64,000 nucleotides of DNA from Leucobacter chromiireducens subsp. chromiireducens (GTDB taxonomy: Bacteria; Actinomycetota; Actinomycetes; Actinomycetales; Microbacteriaceae), in NCBI RefSeq assembly GCF_016758255.1, contig NZ_QYAD01000001.1:248001-312000 (forward strand). The letters are read 5' to 3'. The number at the start of each line of letters is the position of its first letter. The stretch's first letter is position 1. The translations under genes and the position numbers were made by a program. The notes below the pieces were generated by a model that saw only the letters and a list, made by a program, of their open reading frames with translations, searched no databases and was not told the DNA's origin. Positions 7,479 through 64,000 of this stretch are shown piece by piece.

Positions 7479-8135
7479 ATGAAGCGAGGCCGCCTAGACC
7501 AGCGCACAATCGTTGACGCGGTGCTCGAGCTTGCGAGCAACGAACCGCAGGCCCGCATCACGTTTAAGCGACTCGGAGAAGCGCTCGGCGTCGATGCAAC
7601 CGCGATGTACCGTCATTTTCGGAACAAGGATGAGCTGACGCGCGCGGCGCTCGACCGGCTCGCGGCAACTGCGACGACGGATGCGCGTGCCGCGGCTGGC
7701 GATTGGCGATCTCGGCTCGAAGCCTTCGCGACGCGGATGGCGGCGCTGAGCCTCGAGCATCCGGCGATCGGCGCGGAATGGGCCATGGTGGATCCGGTGG
7801 GCCCGGGCGATGTCGCCTCAGACGAGTTTCTACTCGAGATGCTTTCAGAGGCGGGGCTTGCGGGCACTGACTTGATCACCGCGTACGCTGCGATTTCTGG
7901 TTTCACGCTTGCTCAGAGCGCTGCGCTCGCGCAGGAGGCACTCGAGCGGACGGGGAGCAGCCGTGACGGCACCATCCCGTGGATCAGCACCTTTGGCTCC
8001 GTGGACCTCGCCGACTTCCCGCACGTGAGCGAGCACCGCGACGCCCTGCTCGCGATCGACGGGATCACCGTCTATCGCGCTGGCATCACCGCGATCCTCG
8101 ACTCGATTGCGCGCTCGGCAGGAGCAGCGCAGTAG
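7479..8135 (+). CDS. TetR-family transcriptional regulator
   Basis: This 218-residue protein has an N-terminal TetR helix-turn-helix, ITFKRLGEALGVDATAMYRHFRNK reduced to its key part GVDATAMYRHF (residues 35-50). A C-terminal tetracycline-repressor-like effector domain follows. I use ATG 7479 because GGAGGAGG ends five bases before it; an in-frame ATG at 7464 would lie within that signal. A TAGACT -10-like hexamer is at 7412-7417. The only divergent neighbour is the Pr6Pr membrane protein gene, the most likely target. Ligand unknown. Confidence 0.88.
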   Translation: MKRGRLDQRTIVDAVLELASNEPQARITFKRLGEALGVDATAMYRHFRNKDELTRAALDRLAATATTDARAAAGDWRSRLEAFATRMAALSLEHPAIGAEWAMVDPVGPGDVASDEFLLEMLSEAGLAGTDLITAYAAISGFTLAQSAALAQEALERTGSSRDGTIPWISTFGSVDLADFPHVSEHRDALLAIDGITVYRAGITAILDSIARSAGAAQ

Positions 8136-11756: not shown

Positions 11757-11769
11757 TCCCGCCCAGAAT

Positions 11770-11822
11770 GCACGGAGCGCGGTGCAATCCGACAGCATGC
11801 CGGGTCGCACCGCGCTCCGTGC
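11770..11822. terminator. Bidirectional terminator hairpin
   Basis: A perfect 16 bp stem (11770-11785 with 11807-11822) closes a 21-base loop between two convergent genes. Confidence 0.9.
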
Positions 11823-11837
11823 GCGGGAGGCGGACGC

Positions 11838-12788: not shown

Positions 12789-12855
12789 TCCGGCTCCTCC
12801 TGCGTTGAGTGCGACGGCGGGAAAACCCGCCTCTCGAAGCTTCGCACACCCCCGG

Positions 12856-12869
12856 ATGTGCATGTGCAT
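12856..12869. promoter_or_regulatory. Overlapping ATGTGCAT repeats in a divergent promoter region
   Basis: ATGTGCATGTGCAT holds two overlapping copies of ATGTGCAT in the 227-base gap between the hydroxyacid dehydrogenase and the MHS transporter. The related palindrome at 10558-10567 precedes the PucR-type gene, so a shared operator is possible. No other strong signal is seen in the gap. Confidence 0.35.
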
Positions 12870-13015
12870 ACCGATCGCCCCGCGGTCCACGTCACTTGCC
12901 TAGTGACCTGAACCGGCCGGAAATGGCATTGTCATTGGAGCGAGCGCGACATGACTCACGGCCCGGTCGCTCGAAGAAGAGTGGGCCATTCACTGGAAAG
13001 AGGACGGATCTCGAG

Positions 13016-14353
13016 ATGAGCTCGACGTCAAACATCACACAGGCGGAGCGGGAAACCGCGACCGTCAACGTCATCTCGCCGAGTGACGCCCGCCGGGCCT
13101 CCATCGGCGCACTCGTCGGCAACGTACTGGAATGGTACGACTACTTCCTGTTCAACACGGCCGCCGCGCTTGTGTTCAACGTGCAGTACTTCGTGAGCGA
13201 CAATGCTGCCGCCGCGTCGATGGCTGCGTTTGCAACGCTTGCCGTTGGGTTCCTGGTGCGCCCGCTCGGCGGCCTGATCTTCGGCTGGTTGGGAGATCGC
13301 ATCGGCCGCAAGGCAGTGCTCATGATCACCGTCGTGGGCATCGGTGTCGCCACGGGCCTCATCGGCATTCTGCCGAACTACGTTGCCATTGGGGTGTGGG
13401 CGCCGATCTTCCTGGTCGTGCTGCGCCTGCTGCAGGGCCTCTTCATCGGTGGCGAGTGGTCGGGCGCTATGACGCTCGCCGTGGAGAACGCGCCGCTCAG
13501 CATGCGTGCCCGCATGGCGGCGCTGCCGCAGCTTGGTTCGCCCATCGCAACGATCCTCTCCTCGGGCGGCTTCTTCCTGCTCGCACTCTTCCTCAGCGCG
13601 GACAACTTCGATGCGTGGGGCTGGCGAATCCCGTTCCTGCTCGCGATCCCACTCCTGCTGCTCGCTGTGTGGCTGCGCAACAAGATGCACGAGTCGCCGG
13701 TCTTCACCGAGATGAAGGAGAGCGGCCAGAACGAGAAGGCTCCCCTCAAGGTCGTCTTCGTGCAGGCGTGGCGCCAGCTGCTCGTCGGCATCGCCGCTGT
13801 CATCCTCGGCACCGCGGGCTTCTACATCGTCACGACCTTCGTCATGAACTACGGCACCCGCGTGCTCGGGATCGAACGCAACATGATCCTCATGGCAACG
13901 CTGATCGGCGCCGTGTTCCAGCTCCTCTCGGTGCTGCACGCCGGTCACCTCGGCCAGAAGTACGGCGCGACGCGCGTCATCATTGGCGCTGGAATCCTGA
14001 CGGCAATCGTGGCCTTCCCCTGCTTCCTGCTCATCCAGACGACGCAGCCGGTGCTCGTCACGATCGGCATCGTCATCTCGGTCTCGCTGCTCACGTACTC
14101 GTTTGCCGCAGCGGGCACGGTGCTCACGGGTCTCTTCCCCGCGTCGGTGCGACTCTCGGGCGTCGCGGTGGCCTTCAACGGCGCGAACGTGCTCGCAGGC
14201 CTCACCCCGCTGATCGCGACGGCGCTTGTGACCGCATCGGGTGACTCCTGGGTGCCCGCAGCCGTGATGCTCGTGCTGTTCTCGCTGCTCAGCACCGTCG
14301 GCGCGATCCTCGCGCCCAAGCTGAGCCAGCAGTACGAGGGCTTCAAGCACTAA
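13016..14353 (+). CDS. MHS-family major facilitator transporter (metabolite:H+ symporter)
   Basis: This 445-residue protein has 12 predicted membrane segments. MHS-family marks are EWYDYFLFNTAAA in the first helix, GGLIFGWLGDRIGRKAVL in loop 2-3 and GLFIGGEWSGA in helix 4. Relatives import shikimate, alpha-ketoglutarate, proline/betaine or aromatic acids by proton symport. The neighbours (hydroxyacid dehydrogenase, amidohydrolase, M20 amidase) suggest an organic acid or an N-carbamoyl compound. ATG 13016 is preceded by GGAAAGAGG at about 12-base spacing, rather far. Probably first gene of an operon with the next two, although a hairpin follows it. Confidence 0.9.
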   Translation: MSSTSNITQAERETATVNVISPSDARRASIGALVGNVLEWYDYFLFNTAAALVFNVQYFVSDNAAAASMAAFATLAVGFLVRPLGGLIFGWLGDRIGRKAVLMITVVGIGVATGLIGILPNYVAIGVWAPIFLVVLRLLQGLFIGGEWSGAMTLAVENAPLSMRARMAALPQLGSPIATILSSGGFFLLALFLSADNFDAWGWRIPFLLAIPLLLLAVWLRNKMHESPVFTEMKESGQNEKAPLKVVFVQAWRQLLVGIAAVILGTAGFYIVTTFVMNYGTRVLGIERNMILMATLIGAVFQLLSVLHAGHLGQKYGATRVIIGAGILTAIVAFPCFLLIQTTQPVLVTIGIVISVSLLTYSFAAAGTVLTGLFPASVRLSGVAVAFNGANVLAGLTPLIATALVTASGDSWVPAAVMLVLFSLLSTVGAILAPKLSQQYEGFKH

Positions 14354-14395
14354 CCCCGGTTGGTCGCGCGCTCAGCGCGGCACACCACCCTCCCC

Positions 14396-14434
14396 GGGTG
14401 CGGCGGAATGGGAACGTTCCCACCCGTCGCACCC
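14396..14434 (+). terminator. Hairpin containing a LacI-like palindrome
   Basis: GGGTGCG (14396-14402) pairs with CGCACCC (14428-14434), enclosing the perfect palindrome TGGGAACGTTCCCA (14409-14422). It may be a terminator or attenuator after the transporter. The inner palindrome also resembles a LacI-type operator, but no LacI gene is in the window. Confidence 0.5.
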
Positions 14435-14464
14435 GAGGCGTTTCCCCGGAAAGGACACCCCAGC

Positions 14465-16111
14465 ATGCAGCTCGACCTCATCGTTCGCGCGCGTGAGATC
14501 CTCACGCTCGATCCCGCTCGCCCCGTCGCACAGGCGCTTGGTGTCATCGGCGAACGGATCGTCGGCTTCGACGAGGAGCTCGCTGGCCTCCACGCGAAGA
14601 GCGAGTTGGACTTCGGCGATGCCTGCATCACACCGGGGCTCATCGATGCGCACTGCCACACCGCGTGGTGGGGGCTCGGGCTCGCGGCGATCGACCTCAG
14701 TCGTGCGCGCGGCCTCGACGAGCTCTATGCGCTCGTTGCCGCTGAGGTTGCTCGTCTGGACGAGGCAGGGGATCCGGGCGCGTGGGTGCACGGCACCGGC
14801 TTCAATCAGGCGCACCACGGGGGCGAGTTTCCCGACATTGCGCGTCTGGACGAGCTGACGGGCGGGCGTCCGCTCTACCTGCGCCACACCTCCGGGCACG
14901 CGTCGATCACGAACACGGCGACGCTTCGCCTCGTTGGTGCGCTCGATTCGAGCTTTGAGAACCCCACGGGCGGCGTCGTGGTGCGGGACGCGGCGGGCGC
15001 GCCGACGGGGCTCGTCGAGGAGGCGGCACAGGGACTTGTGCAGGCGCTCCTCCTCCCATACTCGACCGAGCACCTGGTGGGCGCGCTCGAGGCCGCGACC
15101 GCGCGCTACGCGGCCGAGGGCATCACGAGCTTCTCTGAGGCTGGCGTGGGCGGCGGTTGGATCGGGCACAGCACCGTCGAGGTCGCGGCCTACCAGCAGG
15201 CGGCCGAGCAGGGCCGCCTGCACGCGCGTGCCCAGCTCATGCCCGCGCTCGACGCACTCCGGCCGCTCACGGGCCACACGCACGACTTCGTTGGCACTGG
15301 CGCGGGCGCAGGGCTTGACCTCGGGATCCGGGCGGGCTTCGGCGATGACCGCGTGCGATTCGGGCACGTCAAGGTGTTCCTTGACGGCTCCCTGCTTGGC
15401 GCCACGGCGGCAGTGACCGAGGACTACTGCGGCCACGACCACAACACGGGGTACTTGCTCGACGAGCCGGAGGTGTACCGCGAGCGCGCGCTGGGCGCAT
15501 ACCGCGCAGGCTGGCCGCTCGCCCTGCACGCCATCGGGGACGCCGCAATTGATCTCGCCCTCGACCTCATCGCTGAAGCGCAGGAGCGCTACGGTGTGCG
15601 CGATGTGCCGTGCCGCATCGAGCACTTCGGGATCGCGCGGCCCGATCAGCTCGCGCGCGCGGGTGCGCTCGGCGTTGCGGTGACCCCGCAGGCTGGGTTC
15701 ATTGGGCCGATCGGCGACCAGATGGCCGACCGCGTTGGCCCGGATCGCGCGGCCTGGCTGTACCGCGGCCGCTCGATCATCGATTCGGGGATTCTGCTTG
15801 CCGGCTCCTCGGACCTCCCGGTGGCAGACAACAACCTGCGCCGCGGCATGCAGTCTGCCGTCGACCGACGCACCGACTCCGGTGCCGTGCTCGGACCCGA
15901 CGAGGCGATCACCCCCGAAGAGGCGCTCCGCACGCACACCGTCTGGGCAGCTCAGGCGACAGGCCAGGTGGCGAGCCGGGGCACCCTCGAGCGCGGCAAG
16001 CTCGCCGACCTCACCGTGTTCTCAGCGTCGCCGCTCACCGCACTGAATATCGCAGAGCTGGACATCGTCGCGACCATCCTCGGCGGCGAGCTCAGTTACG
16101 ACGGCCGCTAG
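14465..16111 (+). CDS. Amidohydrolase family 3 protein (YtcJ-like)
   Basis: This 548-residue metal-dependent hydrolase matches the YtcJ/N-substituted formamide deformylase group. Metal and active-site marks are the HCHT motif in TPGLIDAHCHT (about residue 64), KVFLDGSLLGA, ALHAIGDAAIDL, RIEHFG and GSSDLPV near the end. It hydrolyses an amide or cyclic C-N bond; the exact substrate is not visible. GGAAAGGA lies about ten bases before ATG 14465. The M20 amidase follows 53 bases downstream, and the pair resembles hydantoin or ureide breakdown: ring opening, then carbamoyl removal. Confidence 0.85.
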   Translation: MQLDLIVRAREILTLDPARPVAQALGVIGERIVGFDEELAGLHAKSELDFGDACITPGLIDAHCHTAWWGLGLAAIDLSRARGLDELYALVAAEVARLDEAGDPGAWVHGTGFNQAHHGGEFPDIARLDELTGGRPLYLRHTSGHASITNTATLRLVGALDSSFENPTGGVVVRDAAGAPTGLVEEAAQGLVQALLLPYSTEHLVGALEAATARYAAEGITSFSEAGVGGGWIGHSTVEVAAYQQAAEQGRLHARAQLMPALDALRPLTGHTHDFVGTGAGAGLDLGIRAGFGDDRVRFGHVKVFLDGSLLGATAAVTEDYCGHDHNTGYLLDEPEVYRERALGAYRAGWPLALHAIGDAAIDLALDLIAEAQERYGVRDVPCRIEHFGIARPDQLARAGALGVAVTPQAGFIGPIGDQMADRVGPDRAAWLYRGRSIIDSGILLAGSSDLPVADNNLRRGMQSAVDRRTDSGAVLGPDEAITPEEALRTHTVWAAQATGQVASRGTLERGKLADLTVFSASPLTALNIAELDIVATILGGELSYDGR

Positions 16112-51969: not shown

Positions 51970-52133
51970 GCGCGCACTGACGTAGCACCTGGGTACCGAC
52001 TTCACTCACTTCAGTGCCAGAGAAGCGCCAGAACGGCCGTTCCGGGGCGACTTCGCCCAGCGGGTTGCCTAAACTTGAGCGTGTTCGCCCACCGGCGTTC
52101 ATCCTCTCCCCGACCGAAGGACTCCCGCACACC

Positions 52134-53321
52134 GTGAGCACCACTGAGCGTCCGGCCCCGCTTCGCATCCTGATCGGCTGCGACACCTTCCTCCCCGACG
52201 TGAACGGCGCAGCCCGTTTCGCTGAGCGCCTTGCCGCTGGCCTCGTCCGCCGGGGCGATGAGGTGCACGTGGTCGCGCCGTCCGTGGGCCACAGCAACAC
52301 GGGGAGCTTCCTGGAGACCATCGAGGGCGAGCAGATGACCGTGCACCGCTGGGCCAGCTGGCGTTGGTACCCGCACGACTGGCTGCGCTTCGTGTTGCCG
52401 TGGCGCGCCCGCGGCTACGCCCGCAAGCTGCTCGACCGCGTGCGCCCCGATGTGATCCACATCCAGTCGCACATCGTGATCGGCCGCGCCCTCGCGAAGG
52501 AGGGGGCAAAGCGCGGCATTCGCATCGTGGCGACCAACCACGTGATGCCCGAGAACGTGCTCGATTTCACTCTCTTGCCCGAGCGGGCGAAGCGCCTCTT
52601 CGTGCGCTGGGGATGGCGCGACGCCGACCGCGTGCTGCGGCATGCGGCCGAGGTGACCACGCCCACGCGCCGCGCCGCCGACTTCCTCGAGCGCAACACG
52701 CACCGCCGCGGGGTGCTGCCGGTGAGCTGCGGCCTGCGCGCTACGGACTACACCGCCGACCTCTCACCGCGCACCGAACACAAGCTCGTGTTCGTCGGCC
52801 GCGTGACCCTCGAGAAGGAGATCGACGTGATTTTGCGCGCGATCCCGCTCATGGATCCCGAACTGCGGGTGAGCTTCACGATTGTGGGCGACGGCGATCA
52901 GCGCAAGAACCTCGAGAAGCTCGCGGGCGAGCTCGGCATCCGGGATCGTGTGCACTTCACTGGCCGCGTGACGGACGCTGAACTGCGCGCCCACCTCACC
53001 GAGGCGAGCGTGTTCGTCATCGCCTCGATCGCCGAGCTGCAGTCGATCGCCACGATGGAGGCGATGGCCTCCGGGCTGCCGATCGTGGCTGCCGACGCGA
53101 TGGCCCTGCCGCACCTCGTGCACGAGGGCGAGAACGGCTACCTGTTCCAGCCCGGCTACGACCGTGAGCTCGCGGAACGCGTCGAGAAGATCCTGCGCCT
53201 CTCGCCCGAGGACTACCGAAAGATGCAGGAAGCCTCGCTCGAGGCGGTTCAGGTGCACGACATCGACCGTACGCTCGACACTTTTGAGGCGCTGTACCGC
53301 GGCGAGACCCCCGCGAGCTGA
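52134..53321 (+). CDS. GT4-family glycosyltransferase, first of a pair
   Basis: This 395-residue GT-B retaining glycosyltransferase has an N-terminal domain opening RILIGCDTFLPDVNGAARFA (key part DTFLPDVNGAA). The C-terminal nucleotide-sugar domain has KLVFVGRVTLEKEIDVI and the E-x7-E motif SIAELQSIATMEAMASGLPIVA (shortened: AELQSIATMEAMASG). It resembles actinobacterial mannosyltransferases that act on lipids or wall glycans; donor and acceptor are not determinable. GTG 52134 follows GAAGGA at a long 13-base spacing. A TAAACT -10-like word is at 52070-52075. The second glycosyltransferase follows after two bases. Confidence 0.87.
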   Translation: MSTTERPAPLRILIGCDTFLPDVNGAARFAERLAAGLVRRGDEVHVVAPSVGHSNTGSFLETIEGEQMTVHRWASWRWYPHDWLRFVLPWRARGYARKLLDRVRPDVIHIQSHIVIGRALAKEGAKRGIRIVATNHVMPENVLDFTLLPERAKRLFVRWGWRDADRVLRHAAEVTTPTRRAADFLERNTHRRGVLPVSCGLRATDYTADLSPRTEHKLVFVGRVTLEKEIDVILRAIPLMDPELRVSFTIVGDGDQRKNLEKLAGELGIRDRVHFTGRVTDAELRAHLTEASVFVIASIAELQSIATMEAMASGLPIVAADAMALPHLVHEGENGYLFQPGYDRELAERVEKILRLSPEDYRKMQEASLEAVQVHDIDRTLDTFEALYRGETPAS

Positions 53322-53323
53322 TC

Positions 53324-54601
53324 ATGCACGTGCTCGTCGTCACAGACCAGCACCCTGACTCGCTGGGCGGGGTGCAGGTGGCGATCCGGTTGCAGCGCCA
53401 GGCTCTGGAGCGCCTGGGGCACCGGGTGACCATCGTGGCCCCCGAGCTGCACCGTGCCGGGTACGAGGTGGCAGAAGCGGATCGCGAGGCGTACCTCGAC
53501 CTCCCCTCACGTCCCATTACGCGAGATCGTGAGTACGGCATCACCTGGCCCGGCGCACGCACGGACCGGGCGCTTGCCGCGCGGCTCGCACAGCTGCCGC
53601 CGGTGGATCTCGTGCACGTGCAGGGCGACTTCTGGGGTGCGATGATCGGGATCCGGGCTGCCCGTGGGCTCCGCGTGCCCATTGTGCACACCATGCACAA
53701 CCACGTGGACGCGGGCACGCGCGCGGTGACACCGTTCGCCCCCGTCGCGTTCCAGGCGCTGCGTGCGTGGCGCTTCCTCGCGCTCGGGAAGCCGCGCGGC
53801 AGCGTATCGCGCAGCTCACGTGGTGCGTGGCGCTTCCTCGCGGAACTCGCCGCGGACGCCGCGGTGGTCACCGCGCCGTCCGCGCACTTTGCCGCGGAGT
53901 TGCGCGCGCATTCGGTGACCGCCAACGTGCGGGTTACTCCGGGCGGAGTCGACGACCAGGCAATAGCCGCGGCCCGAGCCGTGCCGCGCGCACCGCGGAC
54001 GCGCCCGCGCCTCGTGTGGCTCGGGCGAATGAGCCAGGAGAAGCGCATTCTCGAGTTCATCGACGCGATCGCGGAGGCCGACATCGACGCCGACATCGCG
54101 CTACACGGCGCCGGGCTGCTGCTGCCGCGCGTGCGCGAGCGGATCGCGGCGCACGGCCTGGGCGATCGCGTGACGATCCCGGGGCCGGTTCCCTACGCGC
54201 AGGCGCTCGCCGCGATGCGGGATGCTGATGCCCTGGTGCAGACCTCGATGGGCTTCGAAACCCAGGGGCTCACGCCGTTCGAGGCCGCCGCGCTGGGCAC
54301 CCCGACGATCTTCTGCGACCCGAACATCGCTGACGATGTCGCGGTGCAGCCGGAGTGGCGCGTACCTGCGGGGAACGTGAGTGCGCTCGCGGACACCCTG
54401 CGTGGCGCCGTGGCAGAGCTGCGTGCGGGGCTCAGCGATCCCGATCTGAGGGAAGCCGAGGCCGCTGCGGGCGGATCGTCCGAACGTGCGTCAGCGGGCC
54501 CCCTGCGCGTTGCTGAGGCCGATGGGGATCGATTCCTGCAGTCGGCGCAGAGCCGAGTGATGCTCGAGGCGTACGCCGCGGCGCTCGCCGAGCGTGCGTA
54601 A
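53324..54601 (+). CDS. GT4-family glycosyltransferase, second of a pair
   Basis: This 425-residue GT-B enzyme begins HVLVVTDQHPDSLGGVQVA and has the donor-site RPRLVWLGRMSQEKRI and the E-x7-E motif MGFETQGLTPFEAAALG. It is immediately downstream of the first transferase and probably acts on the same glycan. Between residues 147 and 173 the RAWRFLA word occurs twice, exactly 20 residues apart, an apparent in-frame insertion. The C-terminal 60 residues after the GT domain are Ala/Glu-rich. It converges with the CHAP-like gene with only 21 bases between stops. Confidence 0.86.
   Translation: MHVLVVTDQHPDSLGGVQVAIRLQRQALERLGHRVTIVAPELHRAGYEVAEADREAYLDLPSRPITRDREYGITWPGARTDRALAARLAQLPPVDLVHVQGDFWGAMIGIRAARGLRVPIVHTMHNHVDAGTRAVTPFAPVAFQALRAWRFLALGKPRGSVSRSSRGAWRFLAELAADAAVVTAPSAHFAAELRAHSVTANVRVTPGGVDDQAIAAARAVPRAPRTRPRLVWLGRMSQEKRILEFIDAIAEADIDADIALHGAGLLLPRVRERIAAHGLGDRVTIPGPVPYAQALAAMRDADALVQTSMGFETQGLTPFEAAALGTPTIFCDPNIADDVAVQPEWRVPAGNVSALADTLRGAVAELRAGLSDPDLREAEAAAGGSSERASAGPLRVAEADGDRFLQSAQSRVMLEAYAAALAERA
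53763..53842. repeat. 20-base direct repeat, 60 bases apart, inside the second glycosyltransferase
   Basis: The same 20-mer occurs at 53763-53782 and 53823-53842, in frame, bounding a 20-codon segment rich in Ser, Arg and Gly. It looks like a past slippage or insertion event tolerated in a surface loop. Confidence 0.7.
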
Positions 54602-54622
54602 CCGCCTCGCGGCGAACGAAGT

Positions 54623-55255
54623 TTAGAAGCGCCAGACGGCGGCCTGGAAGCCGGCGGGGGGCTGCGGCGTCCAGTTCTTCTCCTCGGTCACGAGGCCAGA
54701 GCCGCCGGGGCTGTTCGACTGCACGATGGTGAAGGTGCCGTCGTCGTTCACGTCGGTGATGAGGACGGTGTGGACGCCCGTCACCCAGGACGTGGGGGAG
54801 CTCGCGTACTCGTACTGAATGATGTCGCCGGGGGCCGCGGTCTCGAGCGTCATGCGGCTCGCGCCCGTGTAGTTGGCCACGGGGTCGCCGCCGCCGGTCC
54901 ACGCACCGCCACCGGCCTTGATCCAGCGCTGGGCGGACATGATGCACTCACCCGGCTGGCTCCAGCCGGTCGGGCGGCTCGTGCCGATTTCGCTCTCCGC
55001 AAGCGCGATCGTCGCGGCAACGTCGAAGCCGTGGGGCACCTGGGCGACCTCTTCGATGTGCAGCACCGAGTCAATGCTCTCACCGGCAAGGCCAGCGCCC
55101 GTTGTGTCGAGAGTCTGCGAGACCGTCGTTGCGGGAAGAACCGCCGCGGGAGAAAAATCCTCGACCGGGGGTGCTGCCACCGCGGGAGCGGCTCCCAGCG
55201 CGAAGGTGACTGAAGCAACCAAGCTCACAATAAAAGCTTTGGCAGAAACATTCAC
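54623..55255 (-). CDS. Secreted CHAP-like cysteine hydrolase
   Basis: This 210-residue exported protein has a signal peptide at residues 1-28, ending AVAAPP. The mature part has a Cys in GECIMSAQRWI (about residue 104), a His in VTGVHTVLITDV (about 162) and an Asn/Ser stretch VQSNSPGGSG. This Cys-His order is that of CHAP/NlpC-type amidases acting on peptidoglycan. PGDIIQYEY between them is the usual strand. The assignment is by pattern. GGAG lies seven bases before GTG 55255. A repeated GTAAC signal upstream fits control by the MtrA cell-wall regulator. It lacks a wall-binding repeat. Confidence 0.7.
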   Translation of the reverse strand: MNVSAKAFIVSLVASVTFALGAAPAVAAPPVEDFSPAAVLPATTVSQTLDTTGAGLAGESIDSVLHIEEVAQVPHGFDVAATIALAESEIGTSRPTGWSQPGECIMSAQRWIKAGGGAWTGGGDPVANYTGASRMTLETAAPGDIIQYEYASSPTSWVTGVHTVLITDVNDDGTFTIVQSNSPGGSGLVTEEKNWTPQPPAGFQAAVWRF

Positions 55256-55339: not shown

Positions 55340-55619
55340 GTTCAAGTCTTCCTCCCTCGTTTGAGGGAGTCTGGGCGCGAGTCGTGGGGTGCGATCCCAA
55401 TGCTCGTAACGATGTTCGCTGCTCAAGAAATTCGCAGGAAAATCCATCGCGGAGGGGGATTTGCGGAGCGAAATCCGGGGGCAAGTAACGAAAAGCGTTG
55501 CGTTCCGGGGGCCCATTCGGGGTCTCGGCGCGTGTCTCGCGCCTCGCCGGGGGTGCGCCCGGTTCGGTGGAGCCGCGTGAACACGCTAGACTGGTACGCG
55601 CTGGCTTTCGAGCCAGTGA

Positions 55620-55707
55620 GGAGGATTCGCCTAGCGGCCTATGGCGCACGCCTGGAACGCGTGTTGGGTTCACGCCCTCGGGGGTTCAAATCCCCCATCC
55701 TCCGCCA
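55620..55707 (+). tRNA. tRNA-Ser (anticodon GGA)
   Basis: The acceptor stem GGAGGAT pairs with ATCCTCC, the discriminator is G and CCA is encoded (55705-55707). The anticodon stem CACGC/GCGTG closes CTGGAAC, giving anticodon GGA. A long variable arm (TTGGGTTCACGCCCTC region) is class II, as expected for serine. TAGACT at 55587-55592 is the likely -10. Confidence 0.96.
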
Positions 55708-55713
55708 CATGAG

Positions 55714-55739
55714 AAAGCCCCTGCTTCGGCAGGGGCTTT
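55714..55739 (+). terminator. Terminator after tRNA-Ser
   Basis: A perfect 11 bp stem AAAGCCCCTGC closes a TTCG tetraloop and ends in TTT, seven bases after the tRNA. Confidence 0.93.
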
Positions 55740-55875
55740 CTGCGTTTCTGCGGCCCACTGGTAAGTGCAGTTGCCGCTCCGGCCTACTCAGGCGTCACCG
55801 CTCAACTCGGTGTTCTGCGCGGGGAACTCCGTGCTAAACGACCTCAGCTTAGGTGCCCCAGGTACTCAGGTGTAG

Positions 55876-55942
55876 CAAAAAGCGCCTAGGGGGCGCGCAA
55901 GCCGGGTGTTTGGGCCTGAAGATCGTGTTGCCAAGAAAACTC
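55876..55942 (+). other. Possible structured leader of the surface operon
   Basis: After TAGCAAAA a short hairpin GCGCC-TAGGG-GGCGC (55882-55896) is followed by GCAAGCCGGG, GGGCCTGAAG and GTTGCC. The order (GCAAA, hairpin, GCAAGCC, later GTTGCC) loosely recalls the c-di-GMP-I (GEMM) riboswitch, but several conserved bases are missing. The segment ends about 28 bases before the first gene. The rest of the 263-base gap shows nothing I can name. Confidence 0.25.
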
Positions 55943-55970
55943 ATGCAGCACGAAGGGAGCCCCGCAGCCA

Positions 55971-58817
55971 ATGCGCGAACGAATTTTCCGTGCGGGAAAC
56001 CGCAGCCGAGCCGCCAGCTCGGTATCCGCCCGCACGACTCGTCCGCGAGGCCGCGTGCTCGTCGCACTCGCCGCCGCGTTTGCCCTGGCGCTCGCGCCGT
56101 TCATGCCCGCCGCTGGCGCGCAGGCGGTGAACTACACCTTTTACCTCAACTCCGCGGATGTCACCGCGAACGCGAAGGACGCGAATCCCGGTGATGGGGT
56201 GTGCGCAACCGCAGCCGGCACGTGCACGCTGCGTGCGGCGCTTGAAGAGTCGAACGCGCTGAACCGCGCGCCGGGCGAGATCCTCATTACGCCAGCTGCG
56301 GGTTTCACAGGCAACATCGACCCCGTCGCCACGAGCTATCAGTACATGCAGACCGGTGCCGTGTCGAACCAGGACGGCGGTGCGCATTTTCTCGTGACGG
56401 CGCCAGTCACTATCGATCTCAAGAATGAAGTGACCGTTGAAGCCACACGGGACCTTGGTGGCGCGCTCTTCCACGTCAATGGGAAGAACATCGTCTTCCA
56501 GAACGTGACGCAGGTGCTCTCCGGTGAGTCCTCATTCGTCATGGGCCCGAACGCCGATGGCGTCACGATCGACGGCGGCTCCTCGGTCACTCAAGCCCAC
56601 TACGGCCCCGAGCGCTTCATCGTCTTCCGCGAGGGATCGAAGAACATCACGGTGAAGAACTATCGCGTGCAGGGATTCTATGATGCGGGCACCGCGACGG
56701 GCCTCTTCTACTTCAACGCGCAGAACTCGACCCCGATCGAGAATGTTGTGATCGACAACGTGCGAGTGTCGTACACGACCGGTGGCTCCTGTACCGCAAG
56801 CGACGGCTCGGGCTGCCGCACGAGCCTCATGCAGTTCCTGCCCCGCAACCAGAACGTGGTGCTGAACGGCTTCACATTCACGAATTCCTTTGTTTCGAAC
56901 CTCACGAGCCAGGTCTCCTTCCCGTTTACCACGGGTACGGCGACGGGCTACAGCGTGAAGGCGTCGAACATCAACATCTCGAACAACGAGTTCATCAATG
57001 TGCAGGGAACCGGTGGGCTGAGTTACACGAACGCTTTCATCGCGCTGCCGTACGGACCGATGGCCGGCACGAACGTGATCTCCGGCAACAAGTTCGTGCG
57101 TGCCACGAGCGGACACGGGTATGCGGTGAGCTGGAACGGAAACACCACGAGCGGTAGCGCCGGAGACCTCACGGTCGCGAACAACTACTTCAACGGGTAC
57201 ACCACGAACTCGATCTACCTGCAGAATGCGGGCGATGTGAGCGTCGAGCGCAACACCTTCGGTGCACGAAGTGCATCGCAGGGGCGCCCCGGAACCCTCG
57301 AGGAGACCCGTGACGGCTCGAGTGCGCTGCTCGACAACCAGTCAAACGCGAATGGGCGGGTGACCACGTGGTACCCGAATGCAGATGCGAAGGTACTCAC
57401 CGCAGAAGCACCCGCGGGCTCCATCCAGGTGGAATCCCCGCTGCCCGAGGACGTGCCCGCCTGTGTGGCCACGCTCGACGCGGTCGCGCCAACCGACGGC
57501 CCGTTCCCCGCGGCGAAGGTCGACCTTGATCTGTACTGGACCCAGGATCGCACCGCCGAGGTGTACCTCGGTCGTGTCGAGAACGTGACAGGCTCCTCCG
57601 CGAAGCTGCTGCTCGACCTGCCGGTCGGCCCGCAGGAGTTCCCGTCCACGGTTGTGGGCAACACGGACACCGCGACGATCGTTGACGCAGACACCGGCGT
57701 CGCCGGCGGCTACATCCGCATGCAGACGATCGGCAGCGACACGCGCCAGTCATCGCAGTACTCGCGCATGGTGGGCTTCAGCGGAAGCTGCCGCCCGGAA
57801 CTGACGATCAACCAGAAGACCGGGCAGAACGACCCGACGCTGGCCCGCGACCTGCACTACACCGTGAAGTCGTCGCTGCCGCTGAACCCCGATTCGGTGA
57901 CCGCTGCGGTGGTCGACGTCACCGCGGCCTCGGTCCCGGAGACGATCGACGCAGGCCGACTGAACCCGCGCAGCGTGAGCGTCACCCCCGTGGCCGGCAC
58001 CGCTGATCGTGAGTTCGAGGTGATCGCACGAGTCGATGACTCCGCGAAGGTCACCGCGGGCATCGCGGCAGATCGTGTGCGCAGCACGGGCGGTCTCACG
58101 AACCGTGCGGCGGCGGCAAGCACCGACCCGGACATCACGTTCCGGAACCCGATTTCGGTGAAGCCCGGCTCGTTCACCCTGGTGACGGGCGAGCCCGACG
58201 GCAAGCAGTATGGCTTCTCGCTTGCGGCGGGTGCCCCTGCCCCGAGCAAGGAGCTCAGCTTCGCAGCAACGCCTGATCAGGCCGCCACGGACAACGCCGT
58301 TGAGCTGTCCAGCCCGACCGCAACGATTGGTGTGGGCGAGACCACCTCGACCAAGATCCGTGTGACGGCGGGCGCCGGCGACGTGCAGGCGAACACGCCC
58401 GTCACGGTCGCGCACACCGTGGCGTCCGACGACACGAACTACGACGGGCTCGTCGTGAACACCCTCCTCGTGAAGCTGTTCTCGACCGATCCCTCGGTGA
58501 AGATCACCAAGCGTGCCTTCGTGGACGTCTCCGACACCAGCACGCCTGCGCAAATCATGGCGACGGGAACCGAGGCCCTGCCCGGCACGCGACTCATGGA
58601 CGGCCAGCCGGTCTGCTTCATCTACGAGGTGGCAAACATCTCGGCTGATGACTGGGCGACGGTGCTGAGCGATGTCACCGTGACCGATACCGACACCCGC
58701 CTCGGCGAGGATGGCGTCATCGGCACCGTCGCGAAGCTGCCAGTCGGCGAGAGTACTCGCCTCTCCGCGTGCGGCTCACTGATCCCCGTCGACACGACTT
58801 CTGGGGCCGCCCGATGA
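55971..58817 (+). CDS. Large secreted beta-helix surface protein with CSLREA-like motif
   Basis: This 948-residue exported protein has an Arg-rich signal peptide of about 51 residues ending GAQA. Residues 72-96 hold a CSLREA-like motif (DGVCATAAGTCTLRAAL), followed to about residue 450 by repeated strands such as NITVKNYRVQG, NVVIDNVRVS and DVSVERNTFG, typical of a right-handed beta-helix. The C-terminal 400 residues are Thr/Val/Asp-rich immunoglobulin-like repeats. No wall anchor is visible. GAAGGGAG precedes the ATG. It is the first gene of a six-gene surface operon and overlaps the next gene by ATGA. A stalk or adhesin role is likely. Confidence 0.82.
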   Translation: MRERIFRAGNRSRAASSVSARTTRPRGRVLVALAAAFALALAPFMPAAGAQAVNYTFYLNSADVTANAKDANPGDGVCATAAGTCTLRAALEESNALNRAPGEILITPAAGFTGNIDPVATSYQYMQTGAVSNQDGGAHFLVTAPVTIDLKNEVTVEATRDLGGALFHVNGKNIVFQNVTQVLSGESSFVMGPNADGVTIDGGSSVTQAHYGPERFIVFREGSKNITVKNYRVQGFYDAGTATGLFYFNAQNSTPIENVVIDNVRVSYTTGGSCTASDGSGCRTSLMQFLPRNQNVVLNGFTFTNSFVSNLTSQVSFPFTTGTATGYSVKASNINISNNEFINVQGTGGLSYTNAFIALPYGPMAGTNVISGNKFVRATSGHGYAVSWNGNTTSGSAGDLTVANNYFNGYTTNSIYLQNAGDVSVERNTFGARSASQGRPGTLEETRDGSSALLDNQSNANGRVTTWYPNADAKVLTAEAPAGSIQVESPLPEDVPACVATLDAVAPTDGPFPAAKVDLDLYWTQDRTAEVYLGRVENVTGSSAKLLLDLPVGPQEFPSTVVGNTDTATIVDADTGVAGGYIRMQTIGSDTRQSSQYSRMVGFSGSCRPELTINQKTGQNDPTLARDLHYTVKSSLPLNPDSVTAAVVDVTAASVPETIDAGRLNPRSVSVTPVAGTADREFEVIARVDDSAKVTAGIAADRVRSTGGLTNRAAAASTDPDITFRNPISVKPGSFTLVTGEPDGKQYGFSLAAGAPAPSKELSFAATPDQAATDNAVELSSPTATIGVGETTSTKIRVTAGAGDVQANTPVTVAHTVASDDTNYDGLVVNTLLVKLFSTDPSVKITKRAFVDVSDTSTPAQIMATGTEALPGTRLMDGQPVCFIYEVANISADDWATVLSDVTVTDTDTRLGEDGVIGTVAKLPVGESTRLSACGSLIPVDTTSGAAR

Positions 58818-59527
58818 CTTCCACAGAACCCACGCGGCCCCGTGCCGCGAGACGCCGGGGCCTCAGCGCCCGCACCAAGCTGATCGCCAGCGCGAGCCTC
58901 GCGACGGTCGGTGTGCTGGCCGCAGCCAGCATGGCCACCGCGCTCTGGAACGCGGAGCACAGCGTCTCGGGTGCTCGCCTCACCGCGGGTGACCTGAACG
59001 TGAGCTACGGCTCGGGCACCTGGAAGCAGGTCACCCCCGGAGTCACCACTCCCGCGGGCGGCACGCTCGCGGGGGGCACCGACGGTTTCCATTCGATGCC
59101 CGGTGATGTCGTTGAGATGATCGTGCCGATTACCACCACCCTCCGTGGTGAGAACCTGAACGCGACGCTCTCGGTCGAGACCGGAGCTGGCGCAGCGCAG
59201 GACATTGCAAACGGAGTCGTGAAGGCAAGCTACCGCGTTGAGGACGCCTCGGGTACCCCGGTGGCACCCGCCACGGGCGAGGCTGAGCTGGGCACCCCGG
59301 TTGAGGTTCCCGGCCTGGTCAGCAGCAACGCTGGCGAGGTTGCAAACTGGACGGTCGTCGTGACGGTGACCGTGCTCGGCGACTACCGCTGGACGGAGCT
59401 CGAGCCGATGCTCGATCTCGACCGGTGGGCGATCGACGGCGTGAGCGTGACGCTCGACCAGGTGCGCTCAGGCGACGGCTATGCCGCCGCACGCGACGGC
59501 TTCGCTCATGTGAGCGCAGCCTCATGA
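58814..59527 (+). CDS. SipW-type exported protein 1
   Basis: This 237-residue protein has a basic N-terminus, a hydrophobic segment (residues 23-43) and ALWNAEHSVSGARLTAGDLNV. That is the actinobacterial form of the alternate signal region processed by SipW-type signal peptidases (TasA reads AYFSDTE...AGTLDL at this place). The mature part is a Val/Thr-rich beta domain without cysteine. The ATG overlaps the upstream stop, and its own stop overlaps the next ATG. It is probably a structural or accessory subunit of a surface fibre. Confidence 0.8.
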   Translation: MTSTEPTRPRAARRRGLSARTKLIASASLATVGVLAAASMATALWNAEHSVSGARLTAGDLNVSYGSGTWKQVTPGVTTPAGGTLAGGTDGFHSMPGDVVEMIVPITTTLRGENLNATLSVETGAGAAQDIANGVVKASYRVEDASGTPVAPATGEAELGTPVEVPGLVSSNAGEVANWTVVVTVTVLGDYRWTELEPMLDLDRWAIDGVSVTLDQVRSGDGYAAARDGFAHVSAAS

Positions 59528-60426
59528 GGACGCGTACTCGAACCCTGATCACCGGCGGCCTGGTTGTCGCGCTGCTCGGTGGCGCGCTTGCCGCAAGTGC
59601 GCTCTGGAGCGCCGGTACCGACGCGGACGTTCCCGATGTCGCCATCGGCGCGGTCCGCTTCGGCGCAGCGTCCGACGCCAAACCGGAGCGCGTGTTCTCG
59701 GACGGTGGCGCCCCCGTAGCCGTGACGATTCCCGGAAAGACGGTGATCGGGGTGCTCGAGCAGACCACCATCGACGCCGATCCTGTGATCTGGCGCTTCA
59801 CCGCGAGCGGAGCTGCGCTCGGCATCGCTGGCCTGAACTACACCGTTGCGGTGAAGGAACAGGCAGGCGATGGCGGCACGCACGATCTGAGCTCGGGCTA
59901 CGCCCAGCCGGGCACCGTGCTCGCGCTGTCCACGCTCAAGGTGTACCCAGCGGGGGCCGGCAGCGACTGCTCCGCGATCCCCGCCACGCCCGCGCCCGCA
60001 CCGGGCGAGGACCCTCGCAACGTGCACGTGTTCGATGCCAGTGACGTGGAGCTGCAGGCCGCGGGCGCCGCGCTCACGGGTGTGGAGAGCACCCAGGAGT
60101 GGTGCGTGGCAATCGACTGGAACTCCGTGGGCGACGGGACGTACGTCAACGATGTGCGTGTCACGAGCACCGCGGAGGACGGCAGCTCGAACGGCGCGGT
60201 CGCGCGCTGGAACGCTGACGTGGGCTACCCACCCGCGCTCGAGCAGCTTGGCGTATACCGCAACCGTGCCTCGGTTGAAGCCACCGCGGAGGACACCACC
60301 CAAGCCCGCGCCACGAGTGAGTGGCAGGCGGACATCTACCCCGATCCTTCTGGCGAGCCAGGTGTCGTGATCACCCTCGATCCGATCGTGACGAACCAGA
60401 ACCCCGACATCGCACCCCGCGACTAG
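59524..60426 (+). CDS. SipW-type exported protein 2
   Basis: This 300-residue exported protein starts MRTRTRTLITGGLVV and has the hydrophobic segment 8-27 with ALWSAGTDADVPDVAIGAVRFG, a variant of the alternate signal region. The mature domain has two cysteines (SDCSAIP and QEWCVAIDW) that may form a disulphide, and is otherwise rich in Ala, Val, Thr and Asp. It overlaps the previous gene by ATGA. A C-rich 92-base stretch then precedes the next gene. The role is likely as a minor subunit beside the neighbouring proteins. Confidence 0.78.
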   Translation: MRTRTRTLITGGLVVALLGGALAASALWSAGTDADVPDVAIGAVRFGAASDAKPERVFSDGGAPVAVTIPGKTVIGVLEQTTIDADPVIWRFTASGAALGIAGLNYTVAVKEQAGDGGTHDLSSGYAQPGTVLALSTLKVYPAGAGSDCSAIPATPAPAPGEDPRNVHVFDASDVELQAAGAALTGVESTQEWCVAIDWNSVGDGTYVNDVRVTSTAEDGSSNGAVARWNADVGYPPALEQLGVYRNRASVEATAEDTTQARATSEWQADIYPDPSGEPGVVITLDPIVTNQNPDIAPRD

Positions 60427-60518
60427 GTCCCCAACCCCCAATACCCCCCCACCTGACCCTGACGACGAGCGCCGCCACGGTCCCCTTCCCCCAGCGCTCA
60501 CCCCCAAGGAGAAACACC

Positions 60519-61340
60519 ATGACGAACACCAACAACGACCAGATCATCGTCGTCACGGAGCAGAAGAAGCGCCGCCGCGGTCTGATGTGGGTCGCAGCGG
60601 GCGCCGCGGCGCTCCTCGCGGGCGGCACGACCTTCGCGCTGTGGTCAGCCTCGGACACGTTCTCCGGCGGCAACATCACCGCCGGCGACCTCAACATCGT
60701 GCAGCTCGAGGACACCTCGTTCTGGGACGTGTCGAACGACCGTAAGGACGCAACCGAGACCGTCGGCGCGACCGACGGCTCGCAGCTCGGCCACGAGATC
60801 GCTGATGTGAACACCTGGCGCATCGCCCCCGGCGACAAGCTCGCGGCATCGTTCGAGACCACCGCAACGCTCGACGGTGACAACCTGGTTGCTCGCGTCG
60901 GCATCGACGGCCTGCAGAACTACGATGAGGCCATCACCGGCATCAGCTACAGCTACGAGGTCTACTACGGCGACGAGCTGCTCGTCACCGAGACCGCGCT
61001 GCCCAAGACCGCTGACTCGCCGCTGCTCTACCTCTCGGCACCCGGCGCAGGCCAGGCAGCCGGCCTCGAGGACGCGACGAACGGCATTCTCGGCTCGACC
61101 GCAACCGCTGTTGACGGCGTCACCGCGCAGACCGCCGTGTTCGGCATGCCCGCAACCTCGGTCGACCTGAACGTGGTCATCTACGCCTCCTTCTACGAAG
61201 ACACGAACGGCGACTTCCGTTACCAGGACACCGACGTGACCGTGACCGACCGCACCGACGTCACGCTGGTTGACGCGCTGAGCGAGCTCACCGTCTCGCT
61301 GTCGCAGGTCCGCGACACCGGCGCCCAGTTCGGCGCGTAA
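60519..61340 (+). CDS. SipW-type exported protein 3 (RER_14450-like), candidate major subunit
   Basis: This 273-residue protein carries the clearest SipW-cognate signal: KKRRRGLMWV, a hydrophobic stretch, then FALWSASDTFSGGNITAGDLNI (key part SGGNITAGDLNI). It fits the actinobacterial alternate-signal family described from Rhodococcus. The mature chain is acidic, Thr/Asp-rich and cysteine-free, with an NTWRIAPGDKLAASFETTATLDGDNL region like TasA-type beta sandwiches. It has its own strong ribosome-binding site AAGGAG seven bases before the ATG, unlike the coupled genes upstream, and is followed by a strong hairpin. These points suggest high expression. Confidence 0.83.
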   Translation: MTNTNNDQIIVVTEQKKRRRGLMWVAAGAAALLAGGTTFALWSASDTFSGGNITAGDLNIVQLEDTSFWDVSNDRKDATETVGATDGSQLGHEIADVNTWRIAPGDKLAASFETTATLDGDNLVARVGIDGLQNYDEAITGISYSYEVYYGDELLVTETALPKTADSPLLYLSAPGAGQAAGLEDATNGILGSTATAVDGVTAQTAVFGMPATSVDLNVVIYASFYEDTNGDFRYQDTDVTVTDRTDVTLVDALSELTVSLSQVRDTGAQFGA

Positions 61341-61371
61341 GTTCGCCGCAGCCGCGCTGCATCGCGGCACC

Positions 61372-61402
61372 GGGGGCGCCTGGTGACACACCGGGCGCCC
61401 CC
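61372..61402 (+). terminator. Intra-operon hairpin before the signal peptidase gene
   Basis: A 14 bp G+C-rich stem with one wobble pair closes a 3-base loop, 31 bases after the third exported-protein gene. It could limit read-through into sipW and protect the upstream mRNA. Confidence 0.75.
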
Positions 61403-61449
61403 ACCCCAAACTTTTCTCCATCAGATCCCCCAGCGAGAGGAACTCCACC

Positions 61450-62346
61450 GTGAGCCGCACGCACGCCCCCAAGCCTGGCCGGAGCGTGCGCCGGGCAGCG
61501 CGTGCCGACTGGTACGAGTCTCCCTGGCGCATCGCCGGCCGCGCGATCGGCGCCGCCGCAGCCATCGTGGTGATTGCGGCGCTCGCCGCGCTCCTCGTTG
61601 TGCCGCGCCTCCTCGGGGGTGACTCGCTCACCGTGCTCTCCGGCTCGATGGAGCCCACCTTCTCGCCCGGCGATGTCGTGGTGGTGAAGGGGGTCGACGA
61701 GGGCAAGGTCTGCTCCGAGGTCGGAGTGGGCGACATCGTCACCTTCTTCCCCGAGCCGAACGACCCCGCCCTGATCACGCACCGCGTCATCGGCAAGACG
61801 GTCGGCACCTTCGAGGACGGCACGAGCTGCCGCCTCATCACGCAGGGTGACGCGAACTCCGATGTCGACGAGCCGATCTCACCCGCACAGGTGCGCGGCA
61901 AGTTCCTCTACGGTGTGCCGGGTCTCGGCTGGGTGCGCCAGTGGGCGAGCGAGAACACGGGCATCCTCATCGCCGGCGCGGCCGCGCTCATTGTGGGCGG
62001 CTGGCTGCTGAGCGGACTCCGCCGCCCGAAGAGCACAGTTGTGACCATCCCGCGCGTCGCGGAGACGTCCCCCGCACTGGTGGCTGGGCCGAGTGGCGCT
62101 CAGCTGGCCAGCCCTGCCGCGCAAGCGACGGCCGCTCCGCACGCGCGGCACGAGGCGATTGCGAGCAGCGATCCTCATCCACCAACTTCAGATCGCGAGT
62201 ACCAACTGCGTCAGCGCGAACTTGAACTTCGCGAGCGTGAGCTTGAACTCCGTGAGCGCGAGCTCACCTTTGCCCAGGAGCGCCGGGACGACTGGCCCGA
62301 CGCGTTCCTCCACGACGTCACCTCATCCAAGCGAAGCGAGGCCTGA
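61450..62346 (+). CDS. sipW: SipW-type signal peptidase I with a coiled-coil tail
   Basis: This 298-residue membrane protease has a TM segment at residues 28-52, the catalytic VLSGSMEPTFSPGD with Ser66, and ITHRVIG with His111 in place of the Lys of ordinary signal peptidase I. The Ser/His pattern is the ER/SipW type. A second TM segment lies at about residues 171-190. The last 50 residues hold heptads of the kind LRERELE, repeated about three times, a charged coiled coil not expected in SipW. It probably cleaves the alternate signals of the three proteins upstream. Start GTG 61450 follows GAGAGGA. Confidence 0.9.
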   Translation: MSRTHAPKPGRSVRRAARADWYESPWRIAGRAIGAAAAIVVIAALAALLVVPRLLGGDSLTVLSGSMEPTFSPGDVVVVKGVDEGKVCSEVGVGDIVTFFPEPNDPALITHRVIGKTVGTFEDGTSCRLITQGDANSDVDEPISPAQVRGKFLYGVPGLGWVRQWASENTGILIAGAAALIVGGWLLSGLRRPKSTVVTIPRVAETSPALVAGPSGAQLASPAAQATAAPHARHEAIASSDPHPPTSDREYQLRQRELELRERELELRERELTFAQERRDDWPDAFLHDVTSSKRSEA

Positions 62347-62349
62347 TCC

Positions 62350-63243
62350 ATGCGAACCTTCGAACACGTTGCCGCGCCGGCACGGGTGCTCACGGTCGAC
62401 TCCTCAGACGGGCTGTCGACTCGCGGCCGGATCATCGCCGGCTTCCTCACGGTGCTCCTGTTGCTCGGCCTGGGCGTGGGGCTCGCCTTCGCGGATGCGC
62501 TCCCCACGCTGGGCGGCCGAGCGAATACCAGTGGCGCGGCGGCGAGCCCGGATCCCGAGCGAAAGGGGCTGTCGCGAGCTGACGCGTCGACGGCCGCCGG
62601 CACCGAGGTGCTCCCTGCGAGCGTGGTCACCGCGCAGTGGGACGGCCCCGCCGTGCACCTCGACTGGACCGGCGCCGAGTACGCCCGGGCCGAGACCACC
62701 TTCATTGGCGACCGCACGGCCTCTCCGGGTGACCGCGTTGAGCGCACGCTCAACGTTGTGAACGCTGGGCCTGGCGCGGGCGTTGCCGCGGTGACGCTCG
62801 ACCTCGCCGAAGTGATTCCACCCGGAGCCGCGAACCCGCGGCTCGCCGAAGACGTCACCCTGTTCTGGAACATCGGCGGTGTGACGGGCAGCGACACGTT
62901 CGCAGCGCTCAACTCGGCAGACCGCGTGAGCGTCGCCGAGCTCGCGATCCCCGCGGGCGAGACCGTCCCGGTGACCGTCGGCTTCGCCATGGATGCGGCC
63001 GTTGAGGGATCGCGCTCGGCTGGCGGGGACTCCACGATCCTCAGCTTCGACGTGGGCGTCAACCTCACGGGCGAGACCGCGCCGCCAGAGACCCCCAAGC
63101 TCGCCATCACGGGTGCGACCGGAATCCTCGCACTGATCTGCATCGCCGGGGCACTCATCTTGCTGGGCATCCTGCTCGTCGTACTCCGGCGTCGCCGCGA
63201 CACCCGCGAGGACGCAGAAATCTCGGAGTCATTCCCCGGCTGA
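62350..63243 (+). CDS. Membrane protein with LAITG sortase-E type wall-anchor signal
   Basis: This 297-residue protein has an N-terminal TM segment (27-48) and a beta-rich extracellular domain (about 90-240) with NVVNAGPGAGVAAVTLDL, like DUF11-type domains. The C-terminal sorting signal is KLAITG (LAITG 251-255), a hydrophobic stretch and the basic tail RRRRDTRED. LAxTG is recognised by actinobacterial class E sortases. It starts three bases after sipW. It may anchor the surface structure to the wall. No sortase gene is in the window. Confidence 0.82.
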   Translation: MRTFEHVAAPARVLTVDSSDGLSTRGRIIAGFLTVLLLLGLGVGLAFADALPTLGGRANTSGAAASPDPERKGLSRADASTAAGTEVLPASVVTAQWDGPAVHLDWTGAEYARAETTFIGDRTASPGDRVERTLNVVNAGPGAGVAAVTLDLAEVIPPGAANPRLAEDVTLFWNIGGVTGSDTFAALNSADRVSVAELAIPAGETVPVTVGFAMDAAVEGSRSAGGDSTILSFDVGVNLTGETAPPETPKLAITGATGILALICIAGALILLGILLVVLRRRRDTREDAEISESFPG

Positions 63244-63273
63244 TGCCCAGATCGGGTCCGTAGGCTCGGCCCC

Positions 63274-63651
63274 ATGACTGATCCCTATGCGCAAGACGCA
63301 GCGCGCGCGCAGCGACTCAGCCGCGGGGTCGGGCGTTTCATGCACCGGTGGCGAGAGCGGATTCGCCGCCGCCCGTGGCTGAACGTCCTGTACCGCGTAC
63401 TCGTCACCGTGCTGGGGCTCGCCATCGTGGTGATTGGTCTCATCCTGGTGCCGCTGCCCGGGCCTGGCTGGCTCATCGTCTTCCTGGGACTCACCCTGCT
63501 CGGCACCGAGTATTCCTGGGCGCGCCGGATGCTTGGCTGGCTGCGCCGCGTGCTGGCCCGGTTCTGGGAGCGCTGGAACGCGTGGCGGGCGGAGCGCCGG
63601 GCGCGACGCGAGGAACGCGATCGTGCGGCGGGCAGCGCCGCGGTCTCCTAG
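63274..63651 (+). CDS. TIGR02611/PGPGW-type small membrane protein
   Basis: This 125-residue protein has one or two membrane segments around residues 38-75 and the family word LVPLPGPGWLIVFLGLTLLG. Both ends are strongly basic, with many Arg. The function is unknown; the family is common in actinobacteria. TAGGCT (63261-63266) is seven bases before ATG 63274, so its transcript is probably leaderless and independent of the surface operon. Confidence 0.87.
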   Translation: MTDPYAQDAARAQRLSRGVGRFMHRWRERIRRRPWLNVLYRVLVTVLGLAIVVIGLILVPLPGPGWLIVFLGLTLLGTEYSWARRMLGWLRRVLARFWERWNAWRAERRARREERDRAAGSAAVS

Positions 63652-63662
63652 ACAGCGCAGAT

Positions 63663-63712
63663 ACACCACAGGGCAGGGCCCGAACCTTGGTTCGGGCCCT
63701 GCCCTGTGGTGT
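63663..63712. terminator. Very strong bidirectional terminator
   Basis: A perfect 24 bp stem (63663-63686 with 63689-63712) with only two unpaired bases at the apex separates two convergent genes. Confidence 0.93.
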
Positions 63713-63730
63713 GCGATCTCGCGTGCGTTG

Positions 63731-64000
63731 TTACTTGATGAACGGCACGTTGAAGATGAAGCCGGGCTGCTCGCCGCGACGGTATCCCTCGGGGGCCTTC
63801 GCCGCCGCGATGATGTGGAAGATGAAGAGCACGAAGGAGCCGATGCCGAGGATCACGGCGAGGAAGCCGCCAATGAAGGGCAGCGCACCGAGAATCCAGG
63901 TTGCGATGCCGACGCCGACACGCAGCAGCGAGAAGTTGAGGTTCTCGCGGTGGTACGCGAACGACGCCGCGTGGCCCTTGTCTTTCTCAACGAAGAAGAA
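63731..64000 (-). CDS. DUF4870 membrane protein, C-terminal part
   Basis: The reading frame is open to the window end on the minus strand and gives the last 89 residues. FFVEKDKGHAASFAYHREN is followed by two hydrophobic segments and ends with FIFNVPFIK. This matches DUF4870 (Tic20-like) proteins: HAxFHxREALNF-type motif then two TM helices. No function is known. The start lies beyond the window. Confidence 0.82.
   Translation of the reverse strand, partial: FFFVEKDKGHAASFAYHRENLNFSLLRVGVGIATWILGALPFIGGFLAVILGIGSFVLFIFHIIAAAKAPEGYRRGEQPGFIFNVPFIK

Follow-up and report, generated by a model that had tools for sequence, protein, structure and literature searches.

How could an actinobacterium hold a TasA-like fibre to its cell wall, and what would such a fibre carry at its free end? 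The question is raised by a 64,000-nucleotide stretch of the 3.2-Mb, six-contig genome of Leucobacter chromiireducens subsp. chromiireducens (hereafter the window), in which six co-directional genes, called A to F here, span positions 55971-63243; all six open reading frames were verified. The original prediction, made from the letters of this stretch, took them to encode a wall-attached appendage of a kind that it did not recognise. An appendage remains the best reading, but one of a recognisable kind, related to the TasA fibre. On balance we favour a non-covalent fibre of the TasA/camelysin type that is fixed to the wall, with D as shaft, F as base and A as tip adhesin. The telling feature, absent from the original prediction, is the unfinished C-terminal domain of A.

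Protein A and its relatives end without an anchor

A (55971-58817, + strand, an ORF call of 948 amino acids) is probably a secreted protein with a right-handed beta-helix head and an Ig-like tail, and it has no anchor of its own. The original prediction had announced a 948-residue beta-helix protein: the size holds, and for the fold, window A had no Pfam beta-helix match, with PF13229 (right-handed beta-helix) matching 3 of 16 aligned A proteins (best 6.9e-5). A PDB profile search with the A alignment returned nothing meaningful. Heads across the A-type proteins are diverse, including beta-helix, von Willebrand A and CshA_NR2 domains. Neither a sorting signal nor a strong hydrophobic stretch was found in the last 80 residues of any of 24 A-type proteins, window A included, and the upstream copies of two tandem A pairs end unanchored likewise. 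In Microbacterium thalli NE2TL11 (L089, ~4655) a frame break, through error or decay, splits the A gene; this gene was left out of the alignment (A8), and its second piece alone was used for the tail.

The Pfam domain DUF7507 (PF24346, 105 positions) matched the last domain of seven of the eight scanned A-type proteins (L058, L059, L061, L062, L063, L064 and L066), in each case stopping at position 73-78, and the chains end 1-13 residues past the match, 27-32 of the 105 positions short. Six of these seven score above the PF24346 cut-off and L066 below it. With a DUF7507 profile of our own, for which three relatives supplied 24 complete domains, all eight non-window A-type proteins ended at 75-79 of 106, and the hhalign match of the A-type tails to this profile (probability 98.8) ran to column 80 of 108. 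Since the match stops early and the chain ends soon after it, the last strand of the terminal DUF7507 domain is, as judged from these alignments, physically missing in the non-window A-type proteins. In a control of 20 genomes, 42 of the 44 DUF7507 matches above 40 bits reached at least position 97; the remaining two, stopping at 76 and 78, belong to A-type proteins, from L063 and L061. In a separate control of 284 matches the strongest ones, among the matches listed, all reached at least position 95.

Window A and its 15 close relatives share a fixed C-terminal end, LSACGSLIPxDTT, and DUF7507 matched none of these 15 relatives. The link to the truncated group is the A protein of L058, which is a full-length homologue of window A (31 % identity; tail 825-937 at E 1.8e-4) and itself matches DUF7507, thus tying the window type to that group. 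Direct hhalign comparison of window-type A tails with complete DUF7507 domains gave the expected register at a probability of 6.4, which is not significant.

B, C and D as candidate pilins, and their peptidase E

D (60519-61340, +, 273 amino acids) exceeds the cut-offs of both alternate-signal models, with 25.9 bits against TIGR04088 (cut-off 19) and 60.8 against TIGR04089 (cut-off 60). B (58814-59527, +, 237 amino acids) reaches 46.1 bits against TIGR04089, under the cut-off; across the whole source genome this model matched B and D only. C (59524-60426, +, 300 amino acids) matched neither these models nor any other family model scanned; over about its first 50 columns hhalign pairs it with the signal region of B/D (probability 95). 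Of the three SipW-type exported proteins originally proposed, D is therefore a firm case and B a sub-threshold one; C is tied in by its N-terminus alignment alone. To capture the end of the signal and the strand behind it we devised a loose pattern (A, W or F, then G/S-x-hydrophobic), which occurs in 69 of 72 B/D family members. PF12389, the camelysin/TasA family, matched 13 of these 72 (best 2.2e-5) and had no match in window B or D.

D was modelled with AlphaFold2 at pLDDT 80 and has an all-beta core. When its fold was compared with the TasA jelly-roll/Ig-like fold, Foldseek ranked 8aur top at a weak E of 0.067, and 8aur is not among the VIA matches listed for D. PDB sequence-profile searches with the B/D and C alignments gave nothing meaningful. 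From their SipW-type signals B and D are provisionally placed with the TasA/camelysin fibre proteins, and we propose that they form a donor-strand fibre, D as its major (shaft) pilin, B as a minor pilin or an adaptor beside A, and C as a minor pilin. At L082 a second, short copy of the D start (7939-8121) lies directly before D.

E (61450-62346, +, 298 amino acids, GTG start) scored 79 bits against TIGR02228, the archaeal/ER-type signal peptidase model (cut-off 51.85), and is by this match a SipW-type signal peptidase, as originally proposed. It has the motifs SGSM (residue 64) and THR (residue 110), which we take to hold the catalytic Ser/His pair, and a long Arg/Glu-rich C-terminal tail. At 62.4 bits it stays below the cut-off of 190 of the Bacillus SipW equivalog NF046067 and so does not belong to the Bacillus SipW orthologue group.

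F carries the only sorting signal of the cluster

F (62350-63243, +, 297 amino acids) ends, within its last 60 residues, in LAITG, a helix and RRRR, and thus bears the LAxTG-type anchor that the original prediction gave it; it is the only one of A-F with a sorting signal. Its score against the LAVTG anchor model NF058582 is 23.9 bits, just below the cut-off of 27. In the available part of PMC5148588, LAxTG is described as the signal of class E sortases. Of the five sortases found in the source genome, four are class C and one is class E by NCBIfam models; none lies in the window.

The model of F has an N-terminal hydrophobic helix, an all-beta domain (101-241) and a C-terminal helix (257-290), with the first 50 residues unstructured and no sign of a donor motif in the N-terminus. 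The modelled fold is suggestive of a TasA-like protein that is more than a plain anchor; hhalign of F against B/D and against C found nothing, and a PDB profile search with the F alignment nothing meaningful. We propose F as the wall-anchored base. Many F relatives (P0013, P0018, P0021, P0022 and P0035-P0038) carry a Cys-rich, zinc-ribbon-like tail past the membrane helix, presumably on the inner side, which is possibly a signal that stays behind in the cell once the sortase has cut; window F has no such tail.

Gene layout and a conserved hairpin after D

The close packing that had been reported for the six genes applies to part of the cluster: ATGA overlaps join A/B and B/C, and 3 bases separate E from F. 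The C/D spacer, by contrast, measures 92 bases and the D/E spacer 109, and a strong hairpin lies in the D/E spacer. A-F as one transcription unit is therefore a likely reading, which the spacing does not prove. No sigma-70-like promoter was found in 55600-64000.

The hairpin, found by folding the D/E spacer (61372-61402, +), is GC-rich with a 14-bp stem and a 3-base loop, at z -4.3. Hairpins at z <= -3 follow D in 15 of 19 loci (L060, L092, L094, L095 and L096 were left out); the corresponding counts elsewhere are 0/12 after C, 0/12 after E and 2/13 after F. Their sequence varies from locus to locus. A consensus scan did not support a terminator at this site; we propose an mRNA stabiliser or a partial terminator. 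A conserved hairpin after D fits with D as the most abundant subunit, and in the available part of PMC7395162 the main subunit gene bsaA of Clostridium perfringens is followed by a terminator with read-through. On the 5' side of the cluster (52014-55255, 55620-55707) are two GT4 glycosyltransferases, an opposite-strand CHAP-domain protein and a tRNA-Ser gene.

Conservation of the cluster and its wider group

Named genomes were scanned with the F alignment, and the other genes were located by tblastn with the window proteins. Among the 18 loci found, 15 have A-B-C-D-E-F in the window order; as F was the query, this count shows in how many F loci the other genes are present, and does not measure how frequent the cluster is. 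These loci come from Leucobacter (L082, L084-L088), Microbacterium (L089, L090), Cellulomonas (L091-L093, L095-L097) and Cellulosimicrobium (L094), with two tandem A genes in L094 and L095. As for the other three, L083 is cut by a contig end and retains E and F only, L098 has two D-like genes with E and F and lacks A and C, and L099 combines F with a C match and a SipW-type neighbour. The closest named locus is that of L. chromiireducens LYC-2 (identity 89 % for A, 95 % for D). Neither of the two outcomes that the original prediction named as refuting it was observed: the six genes stay together and in order, and modelled D and F are all-beta and not enzymes. Two six-gene copies occur in one strain in L. 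chromiireducens LYC-2 (L082, L087) and in Cellulomonas denverensis ATCC BAA-788 (L091, L092). In L098, from a Micrococcales metagenome-assembled genome, F is followed by a 1134-residue protein (11146-14550) with DUF285 repeats and a SipW-type start matching D.

Across 150 genomes of the bacterial family, source included, F matched 12, several of them over the anchor only, A matched 6 and the SipW-like peptidase E matched 87. At class level F matched 13 of 296 genomes, with most of its length covered in the source genome and G284 only. The cluster is patchy in distribution, given how few genomes match at either level.

For the wider group we took 24 stretches within the family, 4 picked by F and 20 by best SipW match. 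Eight of them (L058, L059, L060, L061, L062, L063, L064 and L066) combine a large secreted protein with SipW-type proteins, a SipW peptidase and an F-type protein, and L058 has all six genes in window order. The remaining SipW stretches examined have no large, A-like first gene. In these A-less operons a SipW-type third protein with a ricin-type lectin or fn3 domain is found at L072:5628-7859, L075:6569-7996 and L078:6678-8336; the lectin matched three of four scanned third subunits, in L078 below the PF00652 cut-off, and this protein may be the adhesive part of such operons. A DUF222 match of an L080 protein was on the wrong strand and was disregarded. A large AAA-ATPase/LuxR-type regulator stands beside the cluster at L061 (10585-13386), where the GerE domain was tested, and, judged from called protein sequences, at L059, L060, L063, L066, L086, L088-L090 and L097; the window has none.

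Proposed mechanism and alternatives

TasA subunits, according to the available parts of PMC9674648 and PMC10151520, are linked by an N-terminal strand freed beside the signal cleavage site. By analogy, Sec would export B, C and D, and E would cleave their SipW-type signals, freeing an N-terminal strand (motif ALW...G.L) to enter the next subunit. The best-conserved protein, D, with the hairpin after its gene, would build the shaft and B and C would be minor subunits, while F would be joined to the wall by a class E sortase encoded outside the cluster. A, with neither an anchor nor a donor strand of its own, would sit at the free end, a position we propose because its terminal Ig-like domain seems to lack a last strand; this domain would take the donor strand of the last pilin, and the head (beta-helix here; von Willebrand A, CshA-type or others in relatives) would bind the ligand. 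With a polarity like that of TasA, a strand would be donated by the base and accepted by the tip, and the unstructured F N-terminus could serve in this. A fibre, predicted here from the genes alone, is probably made.

Several observations weigh against parts of this scheme. Window A itself has no DUF7507 match, and the 64 weaker control matches (below 40 bits) often end early, for example at ~48-77, in long proteins. Weak matches of this kind prove nothing by themselves, so the truncation has to be read from the end of the chain, which slightly lowers the odds of the tip mechanism. Moreover, an A gene is missing from the Class II SipW operons of the same family, which argues that the fibre does not need A. 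It is conceivable, if unlikely, that F anchors a TasA-like fibre and that A, an adhesin or matrix protein secreted on its own, decorates fibre or wall and shares only the operon. Yet heads that vary widely are joined to ends that are alike, unanchored and stopped at the same point of the last domain, in the tandem copies too, which speaks against this alternative.

A loose, Bacillus-like matrix fibre, with F as a wall-bound starter or chaperone in the manner of TapA or CapP and not as a permanent base, seems improbable to us. Precedents exist, in that the available text has TapA starting TasA fibres by donating its N-terminus (PMC10151520) and wall-located CapP controlling CalY/TasA assembly (PMC13082335); F, however, has a sorting signal and a membrane helix, features that these portions of the text do not give TapA and CapP, and which imply its covalent attachment to the wall. 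We rejected a covalent pilus assembled by a class C sortase and give it very little chance, as none of A-D bears a sorting signal, no sortase gene lies in or adjoins the cluster and none of the five sortases is in the window. Just as implausible is the absence of any appendage, with surface enzymes or coat proteins in its place, A as a polysaccharide-active beta-helix and D as a camelysin-type protease. The name of PF12389, 'Camelysin metallo-endopeptidase', and the fact that beta-helices are often polysaccharide lyases speak for enzymes, but no catalytic family matched A-D or F and the PDB profile search of A was empty.

The wall-fixed donor-strand fibre, if true, would be a new pilus class for Actinomycetota, a TasA-type fibre anchored in the wall at its base and fitted with an exchangeable tip. 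It would offer a testable way for a tip protein to join a TasA-like fibre and would give a role to many proteins annotated in Actinomycetota as 'alternate-type signal peptide' proteins. New here are the anchorless A-type proteins, the unfinished DUF7507 tail in relatives, the post-D hairpin and F as sole bearer of a sorting signal.

Comparison with known systems

The pili known from Gram-positive bacteria are mainly chains linked by sortases or type IV pili, and TasA-type fibres are known as biofilm matrix; the gene order of Bacillus tapA-sipW-tasA differs from that of the window. In a full-text literature search, with subscription papers and preprints mostly outside its scope, we found neither a description of actinobacterial SipW-type fibres nor one of a TasA-type fibre that bears a tip protein. 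As far as the available parts of PMC9674648 and PMC10151520 describe it, the B. subtilis operon has in common with the window a dedicated SipW peptidase, alternate signals and camelysin-type subunits, and its proposed mechanism is likewise a donor-strand fibre; compared with it, the window set adds the sorting signal of F, the large anchorless A with its proposed unfinished Ig domain, and three SipW-type proteins. TasA-CalY-CapP of B. cereus is similar in having two camelysins and a wall-located helper, and differs in being described as sortase-independent, the word 'tip' being absent from the available text (PMC13082335). The sipW-bsaABCRSD operon of C. perfringens resembles the cluster in its SipW-dependent polymer, several extracellular proteins and read-through terminator, whereas, in the available text, BsaA is without an LPXTG-like motif, the neighbouring sortase is dispensable, the polymer is mostly free and two-component regulators lie within the operon (PMC7395162).

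The bundling pili of Pyrobaculum calidifontis are a near system, but archaeal. In chaperone-usher pili, an incomplete Ig domain of the FimH-type tip adhesin takes the N-terminal strand of its neighbour. These pili offer a works-like analogy for the tip, and TasA and Fim are compared in the available part of PMC10151520; having no chaperone, usher or outer membrane, the window system is not a member of that class. Tentatively, and with rather more doubt than the fibre model as such, we suggest that it is a Gram-positive counterpart that does without chaperone and usher: a donor-strand fibre, anchored by a sortase and widespread among Microbacteriaceae and Cellulomonadaceae-like genera, whose exchangeable tip adhesin is attached through an Ig-like domain short of its last strand.
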